Below the pieces are notes generated by a model, which was given only the letters and a program-made list of their open reading frames with translations, was not told the origin of the DNA and searched no databases. The position numbers and the translations under genes are program-made. From positions 1-40,460 of IMG/VR virus record IMGVR_UViG_3300047550_004626: a DNA stretch of 40,460 nt; one strand, 5' to 3'. Below are positions 18,318 to 21,430 of the stretch, one piece after another; within the stretch, counting starts at the first letter, position 1, and the number at the start of each line of letters is the position of its first letter. Source of the DNA: a virus.

Positions 18318-19937
18318 TTAGATAGCCGGAGCCAGAATCAGAGCCATTGAACGATCTGGCATCCAATGATTATTCACAACCGTTGTAGATATCTTATTAG
18401 ACACTGGAGCTGATATATTCTTTCCACCAGCTGTCACGGTAGCAACGCCTCGTTGTGAGGAGAGACTCGCGGCTTCTTCATTGGCGACTGATAGTTCCGT
18501 GCCAGATTTGGATGGCATGTCTCTGATAGCCGCATTGATTCTCTCTAAAGCATTAGCTGTTTTTTCCAATTTGTCACCGGCTTCGGCTAACTTCAATATC
18601 TGATCAATTGGACTTGTACCGGTAACTTTGCCAATCAAACCACCAATGGCTCCGCCAATGCCAGATGCAACTGAAGCATAAGAGAATGCTACCAATGCGG
18701 CAGATATCGCCGCAATCCCCGCGGCGGCTTTGAATAGACCATCTGATTCATCGGCCAGCTTTATTAGTTGTGAGACTCCTTCGACGGCAGATTCCACCAT
18801 CATTTTGAAGCCCTTGGCCAGATACATGACACCTTTGCCTGCCCATTCTGCGGCTTTGCCAAATGTCATCAAAGTCAATCCTAATGCGGCCAGGCCGGCT
18901 ATGCCAACCCAAAATAATGGATTTGCCGCGGCCTGACCAATAGCCGTGACAAACATGCCAATTGCACGGCCTGCTCCAGATGCGGCTCTCTGTAAAACTT
19001 GGACACCTTTATCTAAAGGCCCGGCCAATTCTGACATTGTCTTAAAGGCGCCACCAAATATTTTCATCATGAAGACACCAAAGATGATGCTTCCCCATTT
19101 TACATTGCTAAATTCGACTAATGCTGAAACGAATTTGTGAAATGATTCAATTGTATTTTGAGCAGTTTTGGTACCAATTGTATTTCCAAGTGATTGAACC
19201 GCTTTACCAAATCCTGTAAAGAGAGGAGATATTATTCGAAGAACCACCAAACCTAATGTGACAGCCCCCCATGGTATCTCTCCGAAACTTTTGAAAGCCA
19301 TAGACAGCGTATTAAAAGCTTCAAATCCCTTGGCGCAACTTTGCAAACCATTCAAAGCCTTGCCGACTTCATCAAATCCCTTGGCTGATTTTTTAATAAG
19401 CCAAGGCAATACGGACATCATGGTAAATCCCAATGTCACACGCGCCCAACTAATCTCGCTAAATGTCTTTAGAGATTCTGATAGAACATTAAAAGCATTA
19501 AAGTTGTCTGAATGCTCATCTAAGTCTTTAACGGCTTTAGTAAATGCTTTAAGGCCTGGAATGGCAGATTTGATTGTTTGACTAATATGACTCAATTCAT
19601 TAAAGCCAAAGGATATGGCATTCCAATCAATATCCGCAAATCTATTGAGTGATGAACCAAGGACACCTAAAGCTTGTATATCTTTACCAGAAGCACCAAG
19701 ACCCTTAAAGGATGTTAATATATTCTTGAATGGATCATCTTTGATTGAATCGGCGAAATTTTTAAGACCCTCAGCCGCGCCTTTGCCAAATATGTTCCAA
19801 TCAATCTTTGAAAATTGACTTAATCCATGAGCAATATCGCTGAATTGCTTTGCGCCAGGTAATTCTTTAAGCTTATCTCCTGTTTCGTTTAAAGCATCTA
19901 TTATGGCTTTAATGTTTTCTTTAATATCGCCTGGCAT
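18318..19937 (-). CDS. Tail tape measure protein
   Basis: 539 residues. Repeated unit of about 60 residues over the N-terminal two thirds (forms of L-x-x-F-S-E-I-S-W-x-x-V-x-L-G-F at four to five positions), then strongly hydrophobic segments (VGIAGLAALGLTLMTFG; GIAAISAALVAFSYASVASGIGG) and a Ser/Ala-rich C-terminus. This is how tape measure proteins look: helical repeats lining the tube and a membrane-active stretch released at infection. It directly follows the gp26/gp51 pair on the minus strand, the classic place for a tape measure gene after its assembly chaperones. Late promoter at 19951. Confidence 0.85.
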   Translation of the reverse strand: MPGDIKENIKAIIDALNETGDKLKELPGAKQFSDIAHGLSQFSKIDWNIFGKGAAEGLKNFADSIKDDPFKNILTSFKGLGASGKDIQALGVLGSSLNRFADIDWNAISFGFNELSHISQTIKSAIPGLKAFTKAVKDLDEHSDNFNAFNVLSESLKTFSEISWARVTLGFTMMSVLPWLIKKSAKGFDEVGKALNGLQSCAKGFEAFNTLSMAFKSFGEIPWGAVTLGLVVLRIISPLFTGFGKAVQSLGNTIGTKTAQNTIESFHKFVSALVEFSNVKWGSIIFGVFMMKIFGGAFKTMSELAGPLDKGVQVLQRAASGAGRAIGMFVTAIGQAAANPLFWVGIAGLAALGLTLMTFGKAAEWAGKGVMYLAKGFKMMVESAVEGVSQLIKLADESDGLFKAAAGIAAISAALVAFSYASVASGIGGAIGGLIGKVTGTSPIDQILKLAEAGDKLEKTANALERINAAIRDMPSKSGTELSVANEEAASLSSQRGVATVTAGGKNISAPVSNKISTTVVNNHWMPDRSMALILAPAI

Positions 19938-19942
19938 AAATT

Positions 19943-20089
19943 CTATTTTCTATTTATAGCATCGATATCTTGTTTATGCCTTTCATTCTCCTTTTTGACA
20001 TGGTCGATCAGCAAGGATACATAGATATCCCTCTCCCACGGCAACATGTCATTTAGTTCGGTCAGACTATATCCATGCCGCTGAGCCAT
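19943..20089 (-). CDS. 51: gp51-like baseplate hub/tail assembly protein, probably made by frameshift
   Basis: Minimum form 48 residues from ATG 20089, beginning MAQRHGYSLT, with the core M-L-P-W-E-R-D-I-Y-V-S-L-L-I-D-H and a charged tail. The same frame is open upstream to 20143 (18 more codons encoding H-Y-I-T-N-F-E before the Met) with no ATG, GTG or TTG, although the family pattern appears to include that part. It overlaps the end of the gp26-like gene in the -1 frame behind a slippery heptamer, so a gp26-gp51 fusion may be the main product. Stop 5 nt before the tape-measure start. Confidence 0.75.
   Translation of the reverse strand: MAQRHGYSLTELNDMLPWERDIYVSLLIDHVKKENERHKQDIDAINRK
19951..19958 (-). 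promoter_or_regulatory. T4-type late promoter, TATAAATA
   Basis: On the minus strand, TATAAATAG lies inside the 3' end of the gp51-like frame, 13 nt upstream of the tape-measure ATG (19937). Confidence 0.6.
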
Positions 20090-20136
20090 TTCAAAATTTG
20101 TGATATAGTGATTACTCAGCGTATCGTGTGAGAGGC

Positions 20137-20859
20137 CTAGACGAAAAAACTTTGCAGGCCTTTAAGAGTCAGACTATGCTTCTTCTTACACTTAGGACAG
20201 GTATAATTGACTACTTTGGATAATTGTGGTTGAGTCTCAATATAGCTCTGAATCTGCTTGACATGAGCCGCGGAAAGGGAATCCACGAATTTGGTCATAT
20301 CTGAGATGGAATAGTCCTCCGCACGATACACACCCTTGTCGTCATAGATTGTATCAATTGTGGCAATGATTGCATTGGTGATTCGCTGCCCTTTGTCATC
20401 GTCTTTAGTATTGGCATTCAACTTACCTAATGTGCGAACCGTGATAGGACGCAGAGTCATTCCAATGGTATTACTCAATTCAATCTTATTGGAAGTAAAA
20501 CCATTACCGGTCGAAACAGGCTCAATGGAATCCAGATCGATGTCCATTTCTATTTGACCAATGCAATCCTTTTCTTGGCATTTGAGTGTTATGGCAACAT
20601 TTTCGCCGACCGATTTGGCTCGAAGTTTAAGAAAAAGATATTCCAGATCCGTAGTGGTCAATTCATCTGGATTTACCTTATCAAAGGTGCATCCTCGAAT
20701 GATATCCTTTACGGCCATCATTATCTGTTTTTCATCCGCAGATTCAATCGCAATCATGAGGATCTTCTCCTCTTTGACACGATATGGCCGAATTTCGACG
20801 GTCTTTTTGGTTGACGGAATGGTTACGGTATACTTAGGTGTTTCGATTGTTGGTAGCAT
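20137..20859 (-). CDS. 26: gp26-like baseplate hub / tail assembly protein
   Basis: 240 residues. R-P-Y-R-V-K-E-E-K-I-L-M-I-A-I-E-S-A-D and the L-x-x-T-D-L-E-Y-L-F-L-K-L-R-A-K-S-V-G-E block are the gp26-type signature of T4-like phages. Four Cys form a split zinc site: C94/C99 and C221/C224 (C-P-K-C). The protein ends L-K-G-L-Q-S-F-F-V, encoded by A-GTT-TTT-TC-type sequence that carries a -1 slippery site. In T4 this protein takes part in hub assembly; here it precedes gp51-like and tape measure genes, the position of frameshifted tail chaperones in other phages. Confidence 0.87.
   Translation of the reverse strand: MLPTIETPKYTVTIPSTKKTVEIRPYRVKEEKILMIAIESADEKQIMMAVKDIIRGCTFDKVNPDELTTTDLEYLFLKLRAKSVGENVAITLKCQEKDCIGQIEMDIDLDSIEPVSTGNGFTSNKIELSNTIGMTLRPITVRTLGKLNANTKDDDKGQRITNAIIATIDTIYDDKGVYRAEDYSISDMTKFVDSLSAAHVKQIQSYIETQPQLSKVVNYTCPKCKKKHSLTLKGLQSFFV
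20143..20149 (-). promoter_or_regulatory. Candidate -1 programmed frameshift heptamer (T TTT TTC)
   Basis: In gp26 codon phase the sequence reads AGT TTT TTC GTC TAG, giving the canonical heptamer U-UUU-UUC. SD-like AAAGG (20163-20159) lies 9 nt upstream, the distance seen to stimulate -1 slippage in dnaX. Slippage enters the gp51-like frame at CGT (20143). Confidence 0.65.
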
Positions 20860-20890: not shown

Positions 20891-21430
20891 CTATTTCTTC
20901 TGAACATCCAAATTCAATATGTCGTAATACGAGAATGTAACGGACAACTTTTGAGCCGTATCATTTGAACCTTGACCGTATTCTAATGCCTGTATTTGTG
21001 TTGGAAAAGCCTGTTGCAATTGAATACCATATATTCGTTCCATGTTATTATCCAATTGATAGATGTTGATATTTGTCGAATAGTCTTTGACATATCTGAT
21101 TCGATATGTCACTGGATCAACAATCAAACTCGTCCAACGATCAAACAGATTCTTTGGAAAGAAATCACCTGTCATTAGAAAAACACATGTCACATCGACA
21201 TTCGAATATCCATTCGGAATCTTATATGAATGACGATATGTGGAAAAATCAATGGTTGAAATCTGCCGACTTGGCATACTGACCGATTCACAAAGAATAG
21301 AAAGATCCTGATTGTTTGAATTCAATTCTCCAGGAGGCATGAATTCCACATCAAACTTGTTAGGTTTGGAAATGCCTTTACGCTTGGCAATAACTGATTT
21401 TAGATTTTCTATTGAACCGGTTTCTGGCAT
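20891..21430 (-). CDS. Tail-tube-fold protein (gp19/gp54-like)
   Basis: 179 residues. The tube-protein layout is visible: L-S-I-L-C-E-S-V-S-M-P-S near residue 45, V-D-V-T-C-V-F-L-M in the centre, and F-P-T-Q-I-Q-A-L-E-Y-G-Q...Q-K-L-S-V-T-F-S-Y-Y-D at the end, as in gp19-type tail tube and gp54-type tube initiator proteins. Length is nearer gp19 (163 in T4) than gp54 (320). Position beside gp48-, gp26- and gp4-like genes leaves both options open. Late promoter element 6 nt upstream. Confidence 0.82.
   Translation of the reverse strand: MPETGSIENLKSVIAKRKGISKPNKFDVEFMPPGELNSNNQDLSILCESVSMPSRQISTIDFSTYRHSYKIPNGYSNVDVTCVFLMTGDFFPKNLFDRWTSLIVDPVTYRIRYVKDYSTNINIYQLDNNMERIYGIQLQQAFPTQIQALEYGQGSNDTAQKLSVTFSYYDILNLDVQKK

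Follow-up and report, generated by a model that had tools for sequence, protein, structure and literature searches.

A tail-assembly chaperone (TAC) pair of T4-like phages was reportedly identified by Vladimirov, Gautam and Davidson in 2022 (Virology 566:9-15, PMID 34826709); from papers citing that work and from the T4 comparison given below, we infer that the genes concerned are gp26 and gp51. Both T4 proteins have long been listed as hub proteins, gp51 as one 'of unknown function' that is required yet absent from the particle (PMC3004832). In phage lambda, a short and a long chaperone form, gpG and gpGT, are described in a review, which calls G-T frameshifting widespread 'except T4' (PMC5009743). 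Poly-T -1 slippery signals are stated to be known in the TAC-N genes of T4-like phages (PMC12846349), and some T4-like phages are stated to have, as an alternative, one short gene alongside a second, longer gene that encodes the fusion (PMC10885494); no paper describing the frameshift in cyanophages specifically was found. The present analysis concerns a gp26/gp51-like locus on the minus strand of IMG/VR record IMGVR_UViG_3300047550_004626, a stretch of 40,460 nucleotides (nt) from an uncultured T4-like virus that is referred to as the window throughout. The locus very probably constitutes a single TAC gene, from which a short and a long product are made by -1 slippage. The window is an unannotated new example of a gene type already described in T4-like phages.

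The layout is that of G/GT-type chaperones: two overlapping open reading frames (ORFs), the second in -1 phase, are situated directly upstream of a putative tape-measure gene, and a slippery heptamer of the type X_XXY_YYZ is found near the end of the first (coordinates in Table 1). Read in codons, the gp26-like gene ends with AAA GGC CTG CAA AGT TTT TTC GTC TAG, which contains both the heptamer T_TTT_TTC and the upstream AAAGG that a preliminary description of the window had pointed out. From 20161 onward the -1 frame contains no stop until, as also described there, 19945-19943, just before the tape-measure ORF. A slip at the heptamer would join the gp26 and gp51 frames into a fusion of 305 amino acids (aa), the length given previously. 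The earliest ATG, GTG or TTG of the -1 frame after the slip was located at 20089 (residue 19 after the slip, in agreement with the earlier count, and codon 21 from the first slip-site TTT), and no Shine-Dalgarno (SD) sequence was seen ahead of this start candidate.

Conservation of the slip site was scored in 96 loci (the window, the 80 IMG/VR loci closest to it, and 15 named phages); two distant branches, the Ackermannviridae and the Vibrio D509-like phages, both of which are without the heptamer, were excluded from this count. T_TTT_TTN with C, T or G as the last base was located 7-13 nt before the gp26 stop, with gp51 in -1 phase, in 96/96 loci, and the T-run comprised 6-8 T among the relatives. 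The named phages that keep heptamer and phase are P-SSM2, S-PM2, S-SZBM1, phiM9, Cr30, Aeromonas 65, Ah1, VH7D, D481, phiM12, OC, Ps15, phiW-14, OLIVR6 and Astolliot; RHph_I9, beyond the scored set, has the heptamer in phase as well, as do most named T4-like phages checked outside Tevenvirinae and Ackermannviridae (T_TTT_TTN). Heptamers of the X-XXY-YYZ type are frequent in the window (approximately 80 per strand); the site nevertheless lies beyond chance, because all scored relatives have it there, with its position and phase unchanged. Codon choice was assessed with 46 representatives of less than 80% identity, by multiplication of the probabilities of the synonymous choices. In all 46, Phe-Phe is preceded by a codon with T in third position, and TTT encodes the first Phe (background 55%); the chance of obtaining the slip-site codons from synonymous choice amounts to about 10^-26, a value that treats the representatives as independent and is therefore overstated, although its direction is clear. 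The conservation of T_TTT_TTC thus exceeds chance. Such conservation at the codon level provides a simple rule for re-annotation of the gp51 parts in GenBank, which, in the regions viewed with the slip or the Ackermannviridae layout, are given as a separate gene or left unannotated, and are in no case joined to gp26.

Selection on the -1 frame was examined with 29 representatives that carry no start codon before codon 20, single differences being counted over codons 3-19. In the -1 frame, 2339 synonymous and 821 nonsynonymous differences were obtained, with zero stops, versus 309/2725 and 200/2873 (synonymous/nonsynonymous) and about 10% stops in the other two frames over the same stretch. As judged from these substitution patterns, purifying selection at the protein level acts in the -1 frame only, and does so ahead of any possible start codon. 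Because codons 3-19 are conserved as protein, translation of the -1 frame apparently begins at the slip site or close to it, ahead of any ordinary start.

Profile searches assigned the 0-frame product to PF12322/phrog_150, the T4 gp26 family. The -1 product matched phrog_634 ('baseplate hub assembly catalyst', gp51) from peptide residue 2, which corresponds to the slip site, so that a PF12322 domain is followed by a gp51 C-terminal domain, as in the gp26/gp51 family. Annotated phage records with the -1 product numbered 605 and those with the gp26 part 655, none of them at 80% identity or more; the identity of the gp26 part to any named phage is below 60%. No match to gp51 was found in GTDB genome contigs, and the gp26 profile retrieved nothing relevant from the PDB sequences (best E 0.017).

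In T4 gp51 (249 aa), residues 1-201 make up a full PF12322 domain and residues 200-243 the gp51 tail. The protein is colinear with the fusion predicted for the window, and its residues 200-243 align with the -1-frame segment; T4 gp26 (208 aa) is the counterpart of the short form and lacks a slippery site (GAG TTC TTT). Unlike the window, T4 has gp26 and gp51 as separate genes on opposite strands, with two PF12322 copies. Two PF12322 genes are likewise present in Acinetobacter 133 and IME13, whereas one was found in each of 18 named records of the frameshift layout or the Ackermannviridae type and one in the window fragment. These copy numbers are in line with a replacement of the frameshift by gene duplication in these three phages. 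The findings lend independent support to the view that T4 gp26 and gp51 are the short and long TACs.

A model of gp26 alone was calculated with AlphaFold2 (predicted local distance difference test, pLDDT, 88.6). For the N-terminal ~90 residues, the two best structural matches were 3FGX (Z 7.9) and 2OB9 (Z 7.1), with the next at 4.8; 3FGX and 2OB9 are both listed as tail-assembly chaperones (PMC9603447). Foldseek returned 2OB9 as the first PDB match, with a non-significant E-value. The resemblance of the modelled N-domain to known chaperones is suggestive. The gp26 protein also carries two conserved Cys pairs, with C94, C99 and C221 invariant and C224 nearly so, which are similar to zinc-ribbon knuckles and are located outside the chaperone-like N-domain. 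The equivalence of gp26/gp51 to G/GT, put forward in the preliminary description, is supported by the conserved phase, the heptamer, the tape-measure position and gp51 homology from the slip site onward in more than 90 loci, and further by the colinearity of T4 gp51 and the N-domain model.

In the proposed mechanism, the majority of ribosomes would terminate at the TAG of gp26 to give the 240-aa short form. Some would slip back by one base on T_TTT_TTC, where the tandem tRNA-Phe could re-pair on TTT TTT, and would continue into the -1 frame, so that the 305-aa long form carries the gp51 domain C-terminally. If the roles are like those of lambda gpG/gpGT, the short form would coat the tape-measure protein encoded next door, the gp51 extension would recruit tube or hub subunits, and both forms would leave before completion of the virion. 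The slippery heptamer of lambda differs from T_TTT_TTC, and gp26 is far longer than gpG and has an added C-terminal part with the two Cys pairs. The TAC loci of Vandenendeviridae and Andersonviridae likewise have a -1 slip at a T-run late in TAC-N, ahead of the tape-measure gene; the likeness lies in this layout, and their motif is GTTTTT, unlike that of the window (PMC12846349).

Several observations weigh against this reading. No stem-loop common to the family was found when the first 45 or 70 nt 3' of the heptamer were folded (mean z -0.7 and -1.4, respectively; -0.8 for the 70 nt of the window), so the downstream fold proposed earlier as a check yielded no conserved structure. The SD-like element reaches a family mean of -5.0 kcal/mol at this spacing (background 0.05) and its distance to the heptamer is constant, but a conserved Gly codon confounds the signal, and in the window the AAAGG is weak, with an anti-SD energy of -3.2 kcal/mol; of the earlier expectation for gp26-gp51 junctions, heptamer and -1 phase stood, and the AAAGG is at most a possible weak stimulator. 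The full heptamer is absent from Ackermannviridae-type relatives, which keep the -1 phase and whose T-run is shorter, as in GAG ATT TTC ATT TAA (G_ATT_TTC). The structural matches remain below Z 8. That slippage occurs, with what efficiency, and what the two forms do is what we infer here, the fusion being predicted from the sequence. Neither of the two findings that would have spoken most strongly against the preliminary description was made: a start codon at the H-Y-I-T-N position of gp51 was seen in none of the relatives compared, and loss of the heptamer was confined to the distant Ackermannviridae-type phages, with none in close relatives.

Separate production of gp51 by termination-reinitiation after the gp26 stop, with the T-run as an incidental feature, is improbable as the general explanation. 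It draws on a -1-frame ATG that overlaps the stop codon of gp26 in phiM9, RHph_I9, Cr30, Ps15, phiW-14, VH7D and D481, on an ATG 5 nt past this stop in P-SSM2 and S-PM2, and on the GenBank annotation of gp51 at such an ATG in several of these phages. The window and most IMG/VR relatives, however, have no ATG, GTG or TTG before codon 20-22, although the codons ahead are under protein-level selection, and reinitiation leaves the invariant heptamer and the full-fusion T4 gp51 unexplained. Coupled reinitiation may add free gp51 in those relatives whose ATG overlaps or closely follows the gp26 stop. Slightly less probable still is a mixed frame that arises from transcriptional instead of ribosomal slippage: a run of 6-8 T makes polymerase slippage conceivable, but six T are generally short for efficient slippage of this kind, and the site is always in the X_XXY_YYZ phase needed by ribosomes, a phase that the conserved Phe-Phe fixes too. 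A chance T-run, or a sequencing error that splits one gene, could be entertained in an AT-rich window with so many such heptamers, but is refuted by the conservation of the slip site and its phase in 96 loci, by locus L011, which is identical over 3,376 nt, and by the codon test.

With slippage retained as the preferred explanation for the window, it is conceivable, though rather doubtful, that one family secures the long chaperone by interchangeable routes, of which the window would represent the purely slippage-dependent state. The routes under this tentative scheme would be slippage on the full T_TTT_TTN, slippage on a degenerate site immediately before the stop (Ackermannviridae), slippage supplemented by an overlapping ATG from which free gp51 would arise as a third product, and gene duplication (Tevenvirinae).

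Table 1. Features of the gp26/gp51 locus and its neighbours in the window.
Feature	Coordinates	Strand	Remarks
gp26-like protein, short TAC (TAC-N, 'G' form)	20137..20859	-	240 aa; PF12322 T4_baseplate E 5e-53; phrog_150 E 1e-59; AlphaFold2 N-domain similar to 3FGX, 2OB9
Slippery heptamer T_TTT_TTC	20143..20149	-	kept in phase, 96/96 scored loci; codon-choice test ~1e-26
SD-like AAAGG, possible weak stimulator	20159..20163	-	9 nt upstream of heptamer; anti-SD energy -3.2 kcal/mol
0-frame stop TAG of gp26	20137..20139	-	one codon past heptamer
-1-frame gp51-like segment (TAC-C, 'T' part)	19943..20149	-	slip-site Phe-Phe to stop; phrog_634 E 3e-25
Putative tape-measure protein	18318..19937	-	539 aa; 5 nt after -1-frame stop; assigned by position, size, variable repeats
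Tail-tube-like protein, upstream of gp26	20891..21430	-	phrog_45 E 1e-35

The putative tape-measure ORF is directly downstream in nearly all relatives. Profile searches gave no confident family match for its product, which contains repeats of about 59 aa whose number varies between near-identical phages. The window and L011 both have a version of 539 aa, and L010 (3423 onward) has one of 716 aa; L010 shares ~98% DNA identity with the window over the flanking stretch; the difference of 177 aa equals three copies of the ~59-aa repeat. The added length would predict a longer tail, or the difference may stem from a collapse during assembly of one record.

Two variations at the gp26-gp51 junction were additionally recorded. 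In the Ackermannviridae-type loci (L009 1459-1483, L098 and L105-L109), gp51 follows in -1 phase right after gp26, T_TTT_TTC is replaced by sites such as G_GTT_TTC, G_ATT_TTC or A_CTT_TTT, and an ATG overlaps the stop in some. In one group of relatives, with L016, L019, L020, L023, L044 and others, the gp26 stop abuts the heptamer (TTTTTTC TAA), so that the post-slip A-site borders the terminator and stop-assisted slippage is possible.
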